Translations under genes and position numbers: made by a program
Notes under the pieces: model-generated
The model's database searches: none
The model's input: only the letters and a program-made list of their open reading frames with translations
What the model was told of the DNA's origin: nothing
Source of the DNA: Gemmatimonadaceae bacterium
GTDB taxonomy: Bacteria > Gemmatimonadota > Gemmatimonadetes > Gemmatimonadales > Gemmatimonadaceae
Length of the DNA stretch: 64,000 nucleotides
Direction: 5' to 3'
Assembly: GCA_025930755.1 (NCBI GenBank)
Contig: JAICOJ010000007.1
Span: 1-64,000 of the forward strand
Shown: in pieces, positions 31,098 to 63,874 of the stretch
How the letters are laid out: every line of letters begins with the position of its first letter
How positions within the stretch are numbered: the first letter of the stretch is position 1

Positions 31098-34000
31098 CTA
31101 CCGCTTCTGCGCCGCCGCTTCGCGCCGCGCCAATGCCTTGTAATACTCCTCAACCATCTTCCGATACTCCGCCGGCACGTCCGACGTCCCGCCCAGCAAC
31201 GGCCGATCCGTCAGATCCCCCTCCATCGCCCGCCGCAGCGCGAACTCGAATCCCTTGAAGCCCTCGACCACCGCGCTCTGCAACCGCTGCAGCTCCTCCG
31301 CATCGTCGTACACCCGCGCCGATTCCAGTGCGCGAAGCTGCGCGATCATCCGGTCGAGCTGCGACACATCCACGCCTTCGCGCGAAAGCTCCCGCCGCAG
31401 GGCCTCCGCATCCGCCCGGCGCTCACGATATTCACGCGAGAACTGACGAATCTGCTCCGGCGTAAGATTGCGTCCGCCACCGACGCGCGCACCCTGGCCA
31501 CCGCCTGACGAGGCCGTCGGACTCCCCTCACGACCGCCCTCTCCCTGCTGCCCCTGCTGCCCCTGCTGCCCCTGCTGTCCCTGCTGCCCCTGCTGCCCCT
31601 GCTGCCCCTGCTGCCCCTGAGGACCCTGAGGACCCTCCGCTTCCCGCGCCCTCTCCTCCAGCGACTCCAGTCCACGGGCGATATCGCGCGCCTGGTCCAG
31701 CGCCCGGCCCGCTCGCCGCTCACTCGGCTCACGCACCGCGCCCGCCGCCTCCTCGATCCGCTTCTTCACATCCTCGACCGAGCTGCCGATCTGCTCCTCC
31801 ATGCTGCGGGCGTACTCCGGCGATCCACCCTGCACGACGCCCTTCGAGAAGAGAATGCGCTCGCGGAGGCGAGTCTCGCGAATCGCGTTCGCCGCTTCCT
31901 GCAGCTTGCGCGACGCATCACGCTGCTCGCGCCGCGCCTCGGCTGACATACGATCCAGGCGCGCTTCAATGTCCGCCACCTCGTTCGCCATCGCGTCCTT
32001 CCGCTGCATGAGACGCGTCGACGCCCCCAGCTCACGATTGTCGCCCGCACGCAACTCCTCGACATCCTTCGCCACGTCACGCTGCTCTTGGGCCAGACGC
32101 TCCGCACGCTGCACGAGATCGCGCGCGTCGCGCTCCAGCCGCGACGTTCTTCCTTCGTCGAGTCGACGACGCGCCTCCTCCAGGCGACGCAGCGCCGCCG
32201 CCGCCTCGGCCGTCGATTGATCGCCCTGACCAGTCGCGGAACGGCGCATCGCGTTCGCGGCATCCCGGAGCCGGCGCGCCGCCTCGTCCATCTGCTGCGA
32301 TGACTGCTCGCGTGCCAGACGCTCGAGCTGACGCGCCAGCGCCTCCGTCTCCTGTGCCAGCTGCCGCTGCGATCCACCACCGGTCCCCGAGCGGGACATC
32401 TGCTCCGCGCGTGCCCGCATGCGCTCCGCCTCCTGCTGCTGACGGGCCGCGAGCTGCCGAAGACGCTCGAGCGCCTCGTCAACGCTGCGGTCCGCCTGCT
32501 CCCGCTCGCCTCGCTCCACCTGCTCGTACTGATTGCGCAGCTTGTCGTTCTCCAGCTCGAAGAGATCGGCCAGATCCTCGGCGTTCGGCTGCTCGCCACC
32601 GCCGCCGCCACCGGGCTGCCCATCGAAGCTCACCTGCACTTCCCGATAGGCCGCCTCGGCGCGCTGCAGATGCTGCAGCGCCTTCTGCTCGTGAGGCAGC
32701 GCTTCGCTCGCCTCACGCCGCGCCAGCCGCTCTTCCGCCTCCTTCATCGCCGCGATCGCCTGCGGTAGCTCGGCCGCGATCTTCTCCATCGTCGAGTCCG
32801 CCCCCAGCACGCCGCGCTGCTGCAATCGCTGCTCGAGCGTCGCCACCTGCTCGCGCAGCCGTCCCTGCGAGAGCAGGATCGTCGAGATGTTCTCGCGGGT
32901 CTCCTTGTCCGACGTCGCCGCGCGATCACGCACGGTCTTGAACGTCGCGGCGATGATCTCGCGCTGCCGTTGCGAAAGGGCGCCCGCCGCCGCGTCACCA
33001 CGCGAGCTTCCCGCGCCGCCGGCCTGCTCCGACTGACGATACTCGCGGTTGAACGGACGAATTTCCAGGAAGTAGATGTCGGTCGTCGCGGTCTTCGCGC
33101 CGGCGCGATCGGCGTCGGTGGCACGGGCAAAGTACGCGATGACGTCGCCAGGCTCGAGCGTCATCTCCTCCAGGTACAGCGTATGCCCCGCCGAGACGTC
33201 CTTCAGCCCGCGGCCGCCGTGGAGCGATACCTTCTTCTGCTCGCCGCCATTCACCGAGTACACGAGCTCGAGTCGCTGCACGCCGAAGTCATCCTCGGCG
33301 CGCGCTTCGATGAACACTTCCTCGAGCGACGACACCTTCGCGTCCCGCCCGGGCTTTGTGATCGAGACCGACGGCGCGCCGTCCTCCAGCATGTCGATCG
33401 CGTAGTCGAGCGACGCCGGCACGTACCGGCCGGCGGCGTCAGCCAGCTCCACCTTGTAGAACCCGCTGCGTGAGACGGTGATCTCTCCCGCAAGCGTGCC
33501 GCTATCACCCGGCGCGAGGAGGATGGTGTCCTTGCCGTCGAGCACGAGGCGACCTGCCGCCGTCGCGATCGTCGGCGTGATGGCGACGGTCACTTTGGTT
33601 GCACGCACGGCGGCGATGTCACCGCCATCCTCGACGTGATGCGGAGCCAGGCGCGTGTAGTCGGGATACCGATACTCCAGATCGATCTGCTTCACCGACG
33701 GAAGATCCGCGACGGAGATGCGGAACGCCGGGGACCGCACGGGTCCCGCCTCGACGTAATACTCCGTCTGCTGATCGACGTCGAAAAGCCGAATGGTGAA
33801 CCGCGCCGAGTCGGCGCCGCGTGGCATCGCGATGCGTTCGGGGTCACCGGTGCCGCGTGTCGCCACGAGCGTCACCTCCTCGGCGTCGAAGCCGCCGAGG
33901 TGCGCGTGGACCTCGAGATCGCCGCCCCGCGGAATCGTCGTGTCGCCGGGCGCGACCTGCACGGTGTACGGCATCGCCGCCTCCGCGGACCGCCATGGCG

Positions 34001-38587: not shown

Positions 38588-38698
38588 AAGGTGTCAGGAG
38601 TCAGGAATCAGGGGTCAGGGGGTGTCAGGGGTGAGGACCTGGGGTTCCCTGATTCCTGGAACCCCCTGATCCCTGACTCCTGACTCCTGACACCTAGG
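38588..38698. repeat. Inverted AGGAGTC heptamer array (family B)
   Basis: The left arm reads GTGTCAGGAGTCAGGAATCAGGGG and the right arm CCCTGATCCCTGACTCCTGACTCCTGACACC, making an approximately 35-bp inverted repeat around a short centre. It fills almost all of the gap between the second DUF4159 gene and moxR, the only real gap inside an operon otherwise joined by overlaps or a few bases. Confidence 0.9.
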
Positions 38699-38706
38699 GA
38701 TGAGGG

Positions 38707-39510
38707 TCATCTCGTCATCCCGTAGATGATGTAATTCACCGCCAGCTTGTACGCGTCATTCGTGATGTTCACCGGCCACCATCCGTGGCCCGACCATTCC
38801 ATGTAGTCGCCAATGTCGTTGTTGTAGTTGATCACGACCATCAGCGGCTTCGACGGATCGTTGTCCTCGTGGATTCCCAGAAACTCGGCGGTGAGGTTCG
38901 CGTTGTGCGGATACTTCATGTCGAGCGACGGGATCCGGAAGAACACATCGAAGATCGGATGCGTGACGTCCAGACGGTCGATGCGCGCCTCCGGCAGCAC
39001 CCGGCGGATCTGCGCCTCGAAGTTCAGCCACTCGCTCCGCATGAAGTCGTCGACGATGAGAAAGCCGCCTTTCATTAGATAGCGCCGCAGCCCCTCGACC
39101 TCCGCCTCCGACGGGTGCCAGTAGCCCGGCTCGGAGAGATACGCCACCGGATAGCGCAACAGCTCCGGATCGTCGAACGTGTGGATGTTGCTCCCCTCGA
39201 CGTGCGCGCGCAGCGTCGTGAGCTCGCGCATCATCGTGAGCAGGTTGCGCTCCATCTGCGGATAGTCGAACTCCCATCCACTCCTCCCGTACACCGTGTA
39301 ACGAATGCGGGCGAAGGTGAACCGCCCGTCGTACGGCAGGTTCGGCTCGAGGGCCATCCCGAAGCCACCGTTCCGCCATCGGCCGCGTTGTGCCTGCGCC
39401 GTCTCAGCACCCATCACGAGCGCCGCCACCAGCACGCAGCACGCAGTACGCAGTACGCAGCACGCAGTACGCACTTCGCAGTTCGCAGTTCGCAGTTTGC
39501 AGCTCCTCAA
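38707..39510 (-). CDS. DUF4159 protein with repeat-derived signal peptide
   Basis: A 267-residue exported DUF4159 protein. The domain has the family features FTFARIRYTVYG, the repeated LTTLRAHVEG region, GGFLIVDDFM, THPIFDVFF and VVINYNNDIGDYMEWS. Its N-terminus is unusual: residues 5-27 (LRTANCEVRTACCVLRTACCV) are a 7-residue repeat, the translation of a 21-bp period made of three GCAGTTC-type heptamers. They blend into a short hydrophobic stretch VLVAALVMG that looks like the end of a signal peptide ending ETAQAQ. The start overlaps the upstream DUF4159 gene by 4 bp. GTG codons inside the hydrophobic stretch are less likely alternatives. The domain is a glutamine amidotransferase-like fold, probably not an enzyme. 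Confidence 0.87.
   Translation of the reverse strand: MRSCKLRTANCEVRTACCVLRTACCVLVAALVMGAETAQAQRGRWRNGGFGMALEPNLPYDGRFTFARIRYTVYGRSGWEFDYPQMERNLLTMMRELTTLRAHVEGSNIHTFDDPELLRYPVAYLSEPGYWHPSEAEVEGLRRYLMKGGFLIVDDFMRSEWLNFEAQIRRVLPEARIDRLDVTHPIFDVFFRIPSLDMKYPHNANLTAEFLGIHEDNDPSKPLMVVINYNNDIGDYMEWSGHGWWPVNITNDAYKLAVNYIIYGMTR
39431..39502 (-). repeat. GCAGTTC-type heptamer array inside the DUF4159 gene (family C)
   Basis: About ten direct 7-bp units of the form GCAGTAC, GCAGCAC or GCAGTTC. They lie in the first 80 bp of the second DUF4159 gene and are translated. Only one arm is seen here, unlike the copy at 47405. Confidence 0.9.
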
Positions 39511-42880: not shown

Positions 42881-43857
42881 GGCGACTTGCCCTCGCGAAT
42901 CGTTTGACTCACCTGCGCCAGCTCCACGAGCAGACGCTCGAGCTCACGCTCGTACGCATCGGCGGCCATCGTCTCCTTGCGCCGCCTGAGCGAATCGACC
43001 TGCGCCTCGAGTTGCGTTTTCTTCGCCACGAGCTCGCTTCCACCCGGCGTACTGGCAGCAGCAGCTGCGGCCGTCGTCGCTCCCCCGATGATGAACCGCC
43101 GCGCCCGCGAGCCATCGCCGGCGCGAGGATCGGGCTCGGCCGATCCGCGCCGATCGCCATCATCGTCCAGCATCGCATGCTCGGTCGGAAGCCGCGTGTC
43201 CGTCTCGTATGCACGCGCAACCTCCCGCTTGGCATACACGAATGCCTCGAGCAGAGAAACGCGCTCATCCTTGTCGGTGTCCGCCCCAGGTGTCGTGAAC
43301 GCGGCCACGAAGAATCGCGGAAAGAGCGTCTCATTCCGCTCGTACGACGACTTCGTTGCGGTGACGACGATGCGATTCTTCGCCGAAAGCGCGGCAACGA
43401 AGTCCCCGCTCGCGCTGGCCGCGTTGACGACGGCGACCTGCATCGCCTCGAGCGGCTCCAGCATGACGCCCAATTCAGCGGCGGTGAGATCGGGCCCCGG
43501 CAGATTGAACCGCGAATCGCTGCCCGCGTGGCTGCCGTGCCCGATGAGCAGGAGCAGTACGCGATCGCCCGCCCGCGCGCGTCCCGCCACGCGCGCGATG
43601 GCCCGTGCCACTTCCGCCTTGCTCGACTTCCCATCGATGCGCTTCGGATCCTTCGTGGGATCCTCGGCGAGGTAGGTCACGTCGTCAGGCGTAAGCCCGT
43701 GCTTGGTCACCAACGCGTCAACCAGCGCCGAGCCCGTGGCGTGAAACGACGCGGCGTACTTAGGCTCGCCGCTGGCACCAGTAACGATGATGACCTGCGT
43801 CTGAGCCGCGAGTGACGCGCCCATGAGCAATCCGCAACCCGCAATCAGCAATCTCAC
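42877..43857 (-). CDS. Caspase-fold (C13-like) protein lacking the catalytic Cys
   Basis: A 326-residue exported protein. The caspase-like fold shows the catalytic His in LLLLIGHGSHAG (about 104) and the region that should hold the Cys as VAVVNAASASGDFVAAL (about 146), where a caspase/legumain has DACxSG or ECxSG. Cys is replaced by Ser or Ala, so it is probably a pseudo-enzyme, or uses Ser. The C-terminus has a low-complexity AAAAAA stretch and a coiled coil (KKTQLEAQVDSLRRRK). Start GTG 43857 forms a GTGA overlap with the upstream stop; the track start at 43887 is less likely. Confidence 0.8.
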   Translation of the reverse strand: MRLLIAGCGLLMGASLAAQTQVIIVTGASGEPKYAASFHATGSALVDALVTKHGLTPDDVTYLAEDPTKDPKRIDGKSSKAEVARAIARVAGRARAGDRVLLLLIGHGSHAGSDSRFNLPGPDLTAAELGVMLEPLEAMQVAVVNAASASGDFVAALSAKNRIVVTATKSSYERNETLFPRFFVAAFTTPGADTDKDERVSLLEAFVYAKREVARAYETDTRLPTEHAMLDDDGDRRGSAEPDPRAGDGSRARRFIIGGATTAAAAAASTPGGSELVAKKTQLEAQVDSLRRRKETMAADAYERELERLLVELAQVSQTIREGKSP

Positions 43858-47246: not shown

Positions 47247-47566
47247 TGTGCGGATCTCCCAGGAGAGGCTTTCGAAATCTTACGCTTAGGACCGAGGTGC
47301 CGCACCCGGTAACCATGGACGTATTGTAAGAAACCGGTGGGACTTCGGCGCTTTCAGCGTCCTGAGCCCCTCGTGCGTAGAATACAGTTTGGACATCTGA
47401 AAGGCACTGCGAGGTACGAGCTGCGAAGTGCGAACCGTGGGGTACGGCTTGGCCGAGCGAATTCGTCGGCTCGCAGTTCGCAATTCGCAGTTCGCAATTC
47501 GCAATTCGCAGTTCGCAGTTCGCAGTTCGCAATTCATGTTCTCACCCCACGCGTTGGAGGTACTTC
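47247..47566. other. Divergent intergenic region of 320 bp
   Basis: Between the amidohydrolase start and the Vgb-like gene. It holds the inverted family C heptamer array at 47405-47535 and a GGAGG ribosome site at 47552-47560 for the plus-strand gene. The promoters for the long minus-strand operon and for the Vgb-like gene should lie here, but I cannot place -10/-35 elements with confidence. The ORFs in this stretch are heptamer translations. Confidence 0.6.
47405..47535. repeat. Inverted GCAGTTC heptamer array (family C)
   Basis: The left arm, TGCGAGGTACGAGCTGCGAAG and onward, carries units complementary to the right arm (about 47470-47535), which is nine or so direct units of GCAGTTC and GCAATTC. 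It ends about 30 bp before the Vgb-like start codon. Mixed T/A substitutions are limited to one position of the unit. Confidence 0.88.
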
Positions 47567-48574: not shown

Positions 48575-49232
<658 letters not shown>

Positions 49233-49235
<3 letters not shown>

Positions 49236-49811: not shown

Positions 49812-53179
<3,368 letters not shown>

Positions 53180-53705
53180 TAGGGGTCAGGAGTCAGGAGT
53201 CAGGGATCAGGGGGGTGGAGGTGAATGGGATCGGTCACGTCGAGTGGGAGAGATCGCTTACCCTGAACCCTTCCCTGATCCCATTCCTTCGTGATACGCA
53301 GCTATCGCGACCTTCACGTCTGGCAACTCGGCATCCGCCTGGTCATCGAGGCCTACAAGGTAGGACACCAGCGGCCATCGGATGAACGATTTGGCCTAGT
53401 AGCTCAAATCCGCCGGGCAGCCGTGTCCGTGCCTGCGAACATCGCCGAAGGCCATGGACGCTCATCGCGCGGTGACTATCGCCATCACGTGTGGATAGCC
53501 GCCGGTTCACTGCGCGAATTGGAGACACTGTTCGAGATCCTCACCGTGCTGAAATACGTCGATGAGAAGTCACTCGAGAGGGTGCGAGGGCTATGCGACG
53601 AACTCGGCCGCATGCTGACACGCCTCGCCAAGCGCCTCGAATCCCCGGCTCCCAGGCGTTCCCCTACAACCCCCTGACCCCTGACTCCTGACTCCTGACC
53701 CCTGG
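53180..53705. mobile_element. 526-bp element with inverted AGGAGTC ends carrying a four-helix bundle gene
   Basis: The left end (53180-53215) reads TAGGGGTCAGGAGTCAGGAG and onward; the right end (53669-53705) is its inverted copy, CCTGACCCCTGACTCCTGAC and onward. Together they form inverted repeats of about 35 bp. Between them a plus-strand four-helix bundle gene (53291-53677) runs antisense to imuB and dnaE2 and ends in the right arm. The element and 6 further bases are the entire gap between the imuB stop (53712) and dnaE2 start (53179). It is the only family B copy with a gene inside. No transposase is present, so any mobility would depend on a partner in trans. Confidence 0.6.
53291..53677 (+). 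CDS. Four-helix bundle protein (S23/IVP family)
   Basis: A 128-residue helical protein of the four-helix bundle (23S rRNA intervening sequence protein) family: SYRDLHVWQLGIRLVIEAYK at the start, then GLVAQIRRAAVSVPANIAEGHGRSSRGDYRHHVWIAAGSLRELETL, which is the family core. Such genes occur in 23S rRNA intervening sequences and dispersed repeats of many bacteria, and their role is unknown. It starts at GTG 53291. Its stop codon (TGA) is created by the right arm of the flanking inverted repeat. It is the only plus-strand gene inside the minus-strand repair cassette. Confidence 0.9.
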   Translation: MIRSYRDLHVWQLGIRLVIEAYKVGHQRPSDERFGLVAQIRRAAVSVPANIAEGHGRSSRGDYRHHVWIAAGSLRELETLFEILTVLKYVDEKSLERVRGLCDELGRMLTRLAKRLESPAPRRSPTTP

Positions 53706-53711
53706 TCGCCC

Positions 53712-55031
53712 TCAATCCCAGATCCCATGAAGAAACCACGTCTCATCAATCGCGTCCCGAAACAACCACACCAGTACGCCATCTTCCCTGACTCCCCTGA
53801 AGTACTCCCGCGCATATCCTCCCTCCCAGTGCCCTCCCGAAGTCCTATCCGGCCCTGCCACCTCTTTCAGATCGTGCCAGACGGCGTCATCCCGGTAGCG
53901 AATGGGGAAGGAGTGATCGCGGCGCTCGCTCGTGATGACCGCGATCGGCTGTGGCTCGGGGAGAAGCTGCAGCGTGAGGCTGGGCAGGGCAGGGGCGCGC
54001 GCGGCGCCGACCTCGCTCCCGCTACGCTCGACGAGTGTCGAGGGGCTCTCGGCGACCCACCGGGTCCGCCGGTCGAGCAGGCCGTGGCGGGAGCGCTGCG
54101 GCGTGAGCAGGATCTCTCCCTGATCATCGATGAGCTGCGCCAGTGTCTGCTCCGTCGCACCGGCGCTGGCGAAGCCGCGGTCGAAGAGGTCGCCTTGCGG
54201 GCTTCGCTTGGCGGCGAGGGCGTCGACGCGCAGCACGACGCCGGTGATCGCGTCGCCTAACGTGAGCCGCTCGAGCTGCGCGCGGAGCTGACGCATCCAG
54301 ATCTTGCGGCTCGTCGTCGGTCGCGTGAAGCGCACCCGGCTGATGCTGTGCTCGCGATTGGCGAGCGCGAGGACGAGCGCCAGCTCCCGCGCGCTCTCCC
54401 CCTGCTCATCGAGCGACGTGATCACACGCTCGGCCAGCGCATTGATGATGAAGACGAGCCGTTCAGGATCGGTGAGGGTGTAGTCGGCCCACTCGACCGA
54501 CGCGTGCGGGAGCTCGCGCGGGACTTCTGTGAAGATCGGCCGCCGGTCATCGGCGCGCGCCAGCTGCCAGAGCCGCACGCCCTCGATGCCGAAGCGCACC
54601 TCGACCGCCTCGAGATCCAGGATCGCCAAATCGCCACAGGTGGCGATGCCGGTCCCGTCGAGCAGCGGAAGAAGCTTTGCCGAGGGAGACAGCACATCGA
54701 TCGACAGCGGCGCGAGAAATCCAATCTCCAAACCACACTCGACAAAAACGCAGTTCGCAGTTCGCAGCCCGCAGTCCGCAGTCGCAGCCAGCTCCGCGAC
54801 GATCGGCACCGACGCGACCCCGGCATGCACGTCGACCACCTCTCGCGCTCGCATGAGCTCGAGCAGCTCGCCGGCGACGGCGCGCGCATTCATCCCCCGC
54901 GCATCCGCCCACAGCAGGCCGCGCGCATCGGTCGCGACGCGCGGCACCGCCGCCAGGAGGATCGGCGCGAGCTCAGCGGCGGACGCCGCGCCGGTCCGCC
55001 AGCGTGGCGTCCAGAGACAGACGAAGCTCAT
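53712..55031 (-). CDS. imuB: ImuB-type Y-family polymerase-like protein
   Basis: A 439-residue protein related to Y-family DNA polymerases but, as typical for ImuB, without a clear catalytic acidic set in the N-terminal part; it is the adaptor that links ImuA, DnaE2 and the sliding clamp. The little-finger-like part reads LVLALANREHSISRVRFTRPTTSRKIW, and the C-terminus EGGYAREYFRGVREDGVLVWLFRDA matches ImuB/DinP-like tails. Residues about 82-95 (AATADCGLRTANCVFV) translate a family C heptamer array placed in frame inside the fold, an unusual change. It overlaps imuA by 59 bp; downstream it is separated from dnaE2 by the repeat-bounded four-helix gene. Confidence 0.88.
   Translation of the reverse strand: MSFVCLWTPRWRTGAASAAELAPILLAAVPRVATDARGLLWADARGMNARAVAGELLELMRAREVVDVHAGVASVPIVAELAATADCGLRTANCVFVECGLEIGFLAPLSIDVLSPSAKLLPLLDGTGIATCGDLAILDLEAVEVRFGIEGVRLWQLARADDRRPIFTEVPRELPHASVEWADYTLTDPERLVFIINALAERVITSLDEQGESARELALVLALANREHSISRVRFTRPTTSRKIWMRQLRAQLERLTLGDAITGVVLRVDALAAKRSPQGDLFDRGFASAGATEQTLAQLIDDQGEILLTPQRSRHGLLDRRTRWVAESPSTLVERSGSEVGAARAPALPSLTLQLLPEPQPIAVITSERRDHSFPIRYRDDAVWHDLKEVAGPDRTSGGHWEGGYAREYFRGVREDGVLVWLFRDAIDETWFLHGIWD
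54750..54788 (-). repeat. GCAGTTC-type heptamer array inside imuB (family C)
   Basis: About five direct heptamers (GCAGTTC, GCAGTTC, GCAGCCC, GCAGTCC, GCAGTCG) read in frame in imuB. Thirty-nine bases encode about 13 residues. The reading frame is kept, as for the copy in the DUF4159 gene. Confidence 0.88.
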
Positions 55032-55662
55032 GATGGAGGATGGGAATCGAGAGATCGGTGTGGACGTTCCATCCCGGCGCCTGCGCGTGCACGCGGATCA
55101 CGGCGGCCTGCGCCTCGGCGGGACCGCCGAAGGGATCGCGACGCCAGCGATAGCCGTTCGGCAGCAGACGCGATGTCAGGCGCAGGCTCGCCATCGAGGA
55201 TTCGCGCGCGACCGTGACGAACGCTGCGCCTCCCTCGCGAACGGCGCGTGTCAGGCGCACCGTTTCGGTGCGGGCGGGCTCGAGACCGCTCAGCACGACC
55301 AGGCCGAACCCGCCCGACCGGAGCAGCTCCTCGGCGGTGCGCAGTGCCTGGGGACGAGTCTTCGGCCGGAGGAGGATGGGTCCGTCGTCCCAGATGACGC
55401 CGCCGACCACGCCGCGTCCGTCGATCCAGGCGGCGCGCTCGCCAACCCGGACGGTCGTTAGGCATGTGGCCCGCAGAATGGCCGTCGCGCCACCCTGCGA
55501 GTGCCAGGCCGAGAGCCGCCCACGCGGGAGGCCGCCGCTGGGGAGGATGTGGTCGAGCGCGGCCAGCCCGGTCGCGACCGCCGTCGTCCGATGCGTGATG
55601 GGAAGCGCATCGGGAAAACGCTGTTCGACGAGCGCGCGAAGGGCGGCGACGGAAGAGGACAT
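54973..55662 (-). CDS. imuA: ImuA-type RecA-like protein
   Basis: A 229-residue protein of the ImuA/SulA-related group. It begins MSSSVAALRALVEQRF and has TGLAALDHILPSGGLPRGRLSAWHSQGGATAIL, which is the RecA-like N-terminal region of ImuA with a relaxed nucleotide loop. GFGLVVLSGLEPARTETVRLTRAVREGG follows. ImuA is needed for damage-induced mutagenesis with ImuB and DnaE2. Start ATG 55662 is preferred to 55731, which is upstream of the natural N-terminus. No certain LexA box was seen upstream. It overlaps imuB by 59 bp. Confidence 0.87.
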   Translation of the reverse strand: MSSSVAALRALVEQRFPDALPITHRTTAVATGLAALDHILPSGGLPRGRLSAWHSQGGATAILRATCLTTVRVGERAAWIDGRGVVGGVIWDDGPILLRPKTRPQALRTAEELLRSGGFGLVVLSGLEPARTETVRLTRAVREGGAAFVTVARESSMASLRLTSRLLPNGYRWRRDPFGGPAEAQAAVIRVHAQAPGWNVHTDLSIPILHHELRLSLDATLADRRGVRR

Positions 55663-55722
55663 GAAGTAGGGTACCGAACAAAGACCGAAGTATAGAAGCC
55701 GAATGCTACCAAATCGGCTACC

Positions 55723-55740
55723 GCCAGTCAAGCGACTGGC
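55723..55740 (-). terminator. Stem-loop between the radical SAM and imuA genes
   Basis: A perfect 7-bp stem, GCCAGTC and GACTGGC, around AAGC lies just past the stop at 55746 on the minus strand and upstream of imuA. T-rich tail is weak (ATTTGG). It may end the radical SAM transcript or modulate imuA expression. Confidence 0.5.
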
Positions 55741-57046: not shown

Positions 57047-57175
57047 TCGAACGAGGAACGAGGAACAAGGAAGCGTCCGAACGAGGGAGAAGGAACGAGG
57101 AAGCGCCTTGGACGCTCCTGCGCACCAGAGCTCGACAGCTCACTTCCTCGTTCCTCGTTCCTCGTTCTTCTCCCT
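57047..57175. repeat. Inverted GAACGAG heptamer array (family A)
   Basis: The left arm (about 57047-57100) has several GAACGAG/GAAC units and the right arm (about 57151-57175) the complementary CTCGTTC units. It fills the gap between the two radical SAM genes. The left arm is interrupted by CGTCC and AGGGAG. Confidence 0.85.
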
Positions 57176-63421: not shown

Positions 63422-63742
63422 ATGCATCGCAATGACATTGTGCGCGCGTTGGAGGAACGGCAGGTGGTTTTGATGACCTACGTGTCCGGGGGCCCACGCA
63501 CGGTGCAGCCGCACGCGATCGTTCGAAAACCAGACGGGACGGAGCTCCTCGAGGCGTATCAGGTTCGAGGGTATACGGAGACCGACTCGGAGCATGGCTG
63601 GAAAAGCTTCGAGATCTCTCGAATCGAGACGTTCGAGCTTCTGTCGGAGCGCTTCGAGCCGCGTCGCGATTTCCGCCCGGTGAGCAGCTCGTCAGGGCAG
63701 GTCGTGGCGGCGGTGAGGGTGGGGGCAGAGACGGCGATCTAG
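63422..63742 (+). CDS. Stand-alone WYL-like domain protein
   Basis: A 106-residue protein resembling a single WYL domain: VLMTYVSGGPRTVQPHAIVRKPDGTELLEAYQVRGYTETDSEHGWKSFEISRIETFELL. WYL domains bind nucleotides or other ligands and usually join a helix-turn-helix or a helicase, so a free-standing one is unusual. No DNA-binding part is seen. The ribosome site is weak (AGAGGG 3 bp before ATG). It follows XdhC with a 45-bp gap. Its TAG stop is the first triplet of a family B array. Confidence 0.7.
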   Translation: MHRNDIVRALEERQVVLMTYVSGGPRTVQPHAIVRKPDGTELLEAYQVRGYTETDSEHGWKSFEISRIETFELLSERFEPRRDFRPVSSSSGQVVAAVRVGAETAI

Positions 63743-63874
63743 GGGTCAGGAGTCAGGAGTCAGGGGTCAGGGGGAAAAGCAAACGGCGGCGCGAATGCGC
63801 CGCCGTTTGCCCATCTGATGAGGCGCCTGCGGCGTAGCCGCGGCGCCCTTTCCACCCCTGACTCCTGACTCCTA
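63740..63874. repeat. Inverted AGGAGTC array with nested hairpins (family B)
   Basis: Left arm 63740-63773 (TAGGGGTCAGGAGTCAGGAG and onward) and right arm 63851-63874 (CCCCTGACTCCTGACTCCTAG) are inverted copies. Two strong hairpins lie between them, including one of 14 bp at 63779-63810. Both outer TAG triplets are the stop codons of the convergent WYL-like and DUF4097-like genes. Confidence 0.9.
63779..63810. terminator. Stem-loop inside the family B array
   Basis: A perfect 14-bp stem, GCAAACGGCGGCGC and GCGCCGCCGTTTGC, with a GAAT loop. It is placed midway between two convergent genes, and likely ends transcription from both sides; the left side is preceded by GGGGAAAA. Confidence 0.72.

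Follow-up and report, generated by a model that had tools for sequence, protein, structure and literature searches.

In marine Beggiatoaceae, the heptamer TAACTGA forms direct repeats throughout the genome, mostly in intergenic regions but also in some ORFs, with one set falling in what is predicted to be a surface loop of an RpoC-like protein (PMC4679880). The repeats analyzed here, from the genome of a soil bacterium of the Gemmatimonadaceae, resemble this system (PMC4679880) in being genome-wide heptamers that are mostly intergenic, with some intragenic copies, including a set in a protein loop. However, TAACTGA is a single dominant unit that contains stop codons on one strand and is found near start codons (PMC4679880), whereas here several units coexist in a genome and are private to it, many arrays form inverted pairs, and insertions recur in orthologous loops. 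The GGGAATC/GGGGATT repeats of Xanthomonas and Nostoc, for which a role via G-quadruplex formation has been proposed, are likewise dispersed, variable in copy number, rare in coding sequence, located near gene ends and in some cases inverted (PMC4692102). The GAACTGC unit differs from these in having no G-tracts, and coding insertions were outside the subject of that study (PMC4692102).

The Rickettsia palindromic elements (RPE; Ogata 2000, as summarized in PMC2229807) are palindromes of 105-146 bp with terminal inverted repeats. They resemble the present case as a dispersed intergenic repeat that is also present in frame in conserved proteins and is near-neutral (PMC2229807). Unlike RPE, the array on which this analysis centers consists of 35 nt of direct repeat and lacks an inverted arm, and its 7-nt units give the same reading whichever of the three frames is used. 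Hairpins do occur among the other elements of this genome, but they are built of heptamers. A Rickettsia-type element was ruled out for the imuB array because the complementary arm is missing.

The comparison described below indicates that heptamer DNA enters working enzymes of one bacterial family, at the same orthologous loops and with different units. Such loops represent natural before-and-after pairs that bear on how repeats spread, why their units are private to a genome and how loops are acquired by proteins. Because the period is 7 nt, the same peptide is encoded whatever the frame, so that an array should be more easily accepted if its total length keeps the frame.

The imuB array and its gene

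The window (the whole stretch of DNA analyzed, 64 kb) contains the following features relevant to the array.

49952-53179, minus strand: dnaE2, error-prone DNA polymerase III alpha, completing an imuA-imuB-dnaE2 cassette
53712-55031, minus strand: imuB, 439 aa, Y-family polymerase homologue with an IMS_C domain and a QGDLFD motif at residues 279-284
54973-55731, minus strand: imuA-like gene with a RecA fold, located upstream of imuB; its true start is uncertain
54749-54783, minus strand: five tandem heptamers in imuB (minus-strand units GACTGCG GACTGCG GGCTGCG AACTGCG AACTGCG), encoding TADCGLRTANC
54784-54788, minus strand: remainder of a shortened sixth unit (GCAGCC)
39430-39502, plus strand: GCAGTTC/GCAGTAC copy, of the same family as the imuB array
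43827-43853, plus strand: array of similar units (GCAATCC), weak and degenerate
47471-47535, plus strand: GCAGTTC-family copy, in a stretch of ~155 bp that is missing from the sibling, a genome of the same genus (G001)

The name imuB is correct because the protein has a Y-family IMS_C domain and the gene is located between the imuA-like gene and dnaE2; as in other ImuB, the Y-family domain is C-terminal and both partner genes adjoin. The protein is a short form (~440 aa), other relatives having 550-700 aa with a longer N-terminal part.

According to the original prediction, about five GCAGTTC-type heptamers lie inside imuB and preserve its reading frame, and both statements are confirmed. The plus strand at 54749-54783 reads CGCAGTT CGCAGTT CGCAGCC CGCAGTC CGCAGTC, Tandem Repeats Finder delineates 54749-54787 (period 7, 5.7 copies), and the array is in frame within the intact imuB ORF, where its translation, ATADCGLRTANCVF, corresponds to residues 83-96 of 439. 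The array is impure, with three kinds of unit among the five and at most two identical units adjacent. A search for a complementary partner near 54749-54783 that could form an inverted arm found none.

Heptamers across the window and the genome

Period 7 is the only strongly enriched short period in the window compared with Markov-shuffled sequence: 17 arrays with a score of at least 12 were detected against 0.05 expected, and at this threshold there were none of periods 4, 5, 8 and 10-13. Beyond the window, 683 kb sampled from this genome, a draft of 275 contigs, contained 94 period-7 arrays with a score of at least 13, along with 25 arrays of period 9 and at most three for each of periods 4-6, 8 and 10-13. 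Apart from period 7, period 9 is the sole short period enriched in this genus; at 31543-31636, 8.6 copies of the 9-nt unit CCCTGCTGC form an almost pure tandem array. In samples drawn from the imuB contigs of other genomes, the density of period-7 arrays was 33 per 100 kb in G006, a distant family member, but at most one per 100 kb in G005, G020 and G031.

Three main units are present in this genome, namely GAACGAG, AGGAGTC and GCAGTTC (reverse complement GAACTGC), and the imuB array is a member of the GCAGTTC family (GAACTGC/GGACTGC). Many arrays pair as complementary inverted copies, that is, hairpins, unlike the imuB array. A 20-mer pattern for the heptamer family matched 677 times here, compared with 381 times in G003, 70 in G016 and 52 in the sibling, and was nearly absent from the remaining 56 genomes of the search; as a control, the reversed pattern matched this genome 4 times. 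Exact GAACTGC dimers are found at 123 per Mb here and at 0 in the sampled G001 and G006, GATTCCC dimers at 40 per Mb in G006 but not in the samples of this genome and G001, and GGACTGC dimers at a similar low rate in this genome and its sibling. The repeats thus have the marks of dispersed heptameric SSRs: period 7 is over-represented relative to neighboring periods, one unit occurs at many loci, and the location is mostly non-coding, the imuB copy being an exception.

How exceptional that location is can be judged from the heptamer elements, 101 after merging, in 949 kb of the 4.27-Mb genome, evaluated with a rough codon-usage gene model and approximate gene calls. Only three are in frame inside coding sequence, one of them N-terminal, which bears out the claim that a location away from gene ends sets the array apart. 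The three are the imuB array, a heptamer hairpin between the two ATPase domains of an ABC transporter ATPase, and an array (L217) right at the N-terminal end of a dehydrogenase. Most of the other elements are at gene edges or intergenic, and 23 lie too close to a contig end for a judgment or have no judgeable frame. The units GAACTGC, GGACTGC and GAACGAG contain no stop codon on either strand in any frame, whereas AGGAGTC has a stop codon in all frames of the reverse strand, which fits its mostly intergenic location: of its arrays, 14 lie between genes and a single one overlaps an ORF, although ORF extension blurs the corresponding counts of the other families. AGGAGTC hairpins at 38589-38695, 49114-49234, 49812-49953 and 63741-63873, some of which have AGGGGGTGTCAGG or a similar sequence as their inner motif, resemble a family of short inverted-repeat elements.

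ImuB and other proteins in relatives

Alignment of ~70 ImuB homologues from the family and the order showed that the stretch lying between two conserved segments, xxAExAA and FLAP, which includes the array, ranges from 15 to ~50 residues. In many relatives, including the heptamer-poor samples G005 and G031, it consists of 15-16 residues of unrelated sequence with no array. The same loop of the sibling is encoded by GATTGCG GATTGCG GATGGTT GATTGCG (unit family GGATTGC) and is one codon longer, with the frame kept. In G006, the loop contains GATTCCC and GGTTCCC, which are common elsewhere in that genome and absent from the samples of both siblings. Main-loop arrays are limited to this genus and the one independent case of G006. 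In-frame heptamers also occur at a second ImuB site, the linker before the LTLQL segment (G006, G020 and G147), and an in-frame GCAGTTC-type array at a third, a loop near the C-terminus (G002).

In the alignment with E. coli Pol IV, the main loop stands in place of the DMNKPNG turn, which we take to lie between the palm helix and the next strand of the Pol IV fold; by this homology, the loop is probably at the protein surface. An AlphaFold2 model based on a two-sequence alignment has a mean pLDDT of 41.6, too low to place the loop. The original prediction offered two alternatives, a lineage-specific insertion accommodated in a surface loop or a drifting gene. The insertion is supported, given that the loop varies in length, that it is short and made of other residues in array-poor relatives, and that the array is limited to this genus plus one independent case; the surface position is suggested by the Pol IV alignment. 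The observation that would have refuted the prediction, identical residues from unrelated codons, was not made: where the repeat is missing, homologues differ in their residues.

The imuB genes of the two siblings share 82% identity with no frameshift, and imuA and dnaE2 are conserved neighbors. For the whole gene, dN/dS is 0.19, and the loop (0.18) hardly departs from the remainder (0.19), the loop rates being rough values from two sequences; dS is 1.5 in the loop against 0.52 outside, about three times the divergence. Hence imuB is under constraint while its loop changes fast. The comparison covers two close genomes, a contig scan having returned the sibling alone.

In-frame insertion extends to unrelated conserved proteins, namely ImuB, TGT (tRNA-guanine transglycosylase), the ABC ATPase and DnaE2 of G006. 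One loop of TGT carries distinct, genome-specific heptamer arrays in four repeat-rich genomes: an in-frame heptamer hairpin in the sibling, GAACGAG here, a GGGAATC hairpin in G003 and a GATTCCC-like array in G006; the TGT loop of ten other genomes has no heptamer array. Given the presence of other heptamers in the same loops of relatives, the lineage appears to keep adding repeat-coded stretches to working enzymes. At L145:12300-16032 of G006, dnaE2 and imuB contain several different in-frame arrays in the stop-free orientation, with insert peptides including GHESRVTSHE and ASGIRHQAS. All five in-frame arrays in the 100-kb sample of G006, which was partly picked around the imu-dnaE2 cluster, are at or near this cluster, which, given that choice of sample, is at most a faint hint of a concentration of such arrays there. 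Judging by match lengths, the PCC-beta (carboxylase) stretch is probably just as long in this genome, in which case it may not be a recent insertion.

Among four orthologous gene-end places of the imu region, three contain repeat hairpins of differing units in both siblings, one of them having a 9-nt repeat in the sibling, and the fourth (~47397-47552) is a stretch missing from the sibling. A wider comparison of syntenic gaps revealed the same mixture. At the gene-end hairpins 57049-57167 and 49812-49953, the sibling has hairpins of different heptamers (GATTGCG, GGAGTGA), so that the place is kept and the unit changed.

Origin of the imuB array

We consider it likely that the array is heptamer DNA of a dispersed kind that a permissive loop of ImuB tolerates, without a dedicated function and with purifying selection around it. 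Under this scenario, GAACTGC/GGACTGC heptamers would have multiplied across this genome, chiefly at gene ends, and one array would have landed, or been copied, in the imuB loop between the palm helix and the next strand (by Pol IV homology). It would have been kept there with little effect for several reasons: neither strand has a stop codon in any frame, three units span 21 nt and therefore yield one and the same heptapeptide cycle (ELRTANC or GLRTADC) in each frame, the length of the array keeps the frame, and the loop tolerates varied length. We infer both the arrival through dispersal, as opposed to local slippage, and the neutrality of the array. No target-site duplication or transposase was identified for the arrays. 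Given the similar rates of GGACTGC dimers in the siblings, part of the imuB array may simply have been inherited and altered in place.

A less probable, although not far-fetched, reading is that array positions are old and inherited whereas the units are repeatedly overwritten by whichever unit expands, amounting to genome-wide concerted replacement. If so, the imuB and TGT loops and the gene-end hairpins with kept positions and changed units would be its traces; new arrays arriving in the same few permissive places may equally account for them.

Dispersal into a tolerant loop is also to be weighed against local slippage, whereby a native 7-nt stretch of imuB was duplicated in place, with the likeness to the family arising by convergence or later conversion. 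Among the longer repeats of bacteria, heptamers are reported to be the commonest, and polymerase slippage has been proposed as their source (PMC4692102, PMC4679880); the differences between units within the array, as well as the single transitions by which the sibling's units differ, are compatible with such an origin. Nevertheless, in each genome the units match the families private to it, and the presence of an entirely different unit in this loop of G006, as in TGT, argues for dispersal, so that we regard slippage as improbable.

We see little prospect for a phase-variable switch, in which gain or loss of one 7-nt unit would shift the frame and toggle ImuB and mutagenesis. As 7 is not a multiple of 3, a one-unit change would indeed truncate the protein, and heptanucleotide repeats are discussed for phase-variable loci of Haemophilus influenzae (PMC2651432, PMC8262952). 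The imuB array, however, is short and impure, the sibling differs by a whole codon with the frame intact, and like repeats occur in genes, TGT among them, for which a role as a switch is not obvious. Marginally weaker still is the case for a repeat-coded loop selected for function, such as contact with DNA, DnaE2 or the clamp: the DCGLR core and the cysteine before V are common to both siblings despite the high divergence of the loop, but these shared residues follow from the shared heptamer family, and other relatives have unrelated residues and lengths at this position. Finally, the notion of a drifting gene, in which the array is a sign of decay, draws on the faster evolution of the loop compared to the rest of imuB and can be dismissed given the low dN/dS, the intact ORF, the identity to the sibling and the conserved imuA and dnaE2.

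Next to imuB, a 524-bp unit (53181-53704) consists of a 23S_rRNA_IVP four-helix-bundle gene (53291-53677) between complementary AGGAGTC-type arrays. The sibling has only ~100 bp at this place, with a different 9-nt repeat hairpin, and another IVP copy, in the sampled part of this genome (L107), is without arrays. The outer ends of the 524-bp unit are common to short hairpins elsewhere, and the unit may be mobile, with short derivatives.
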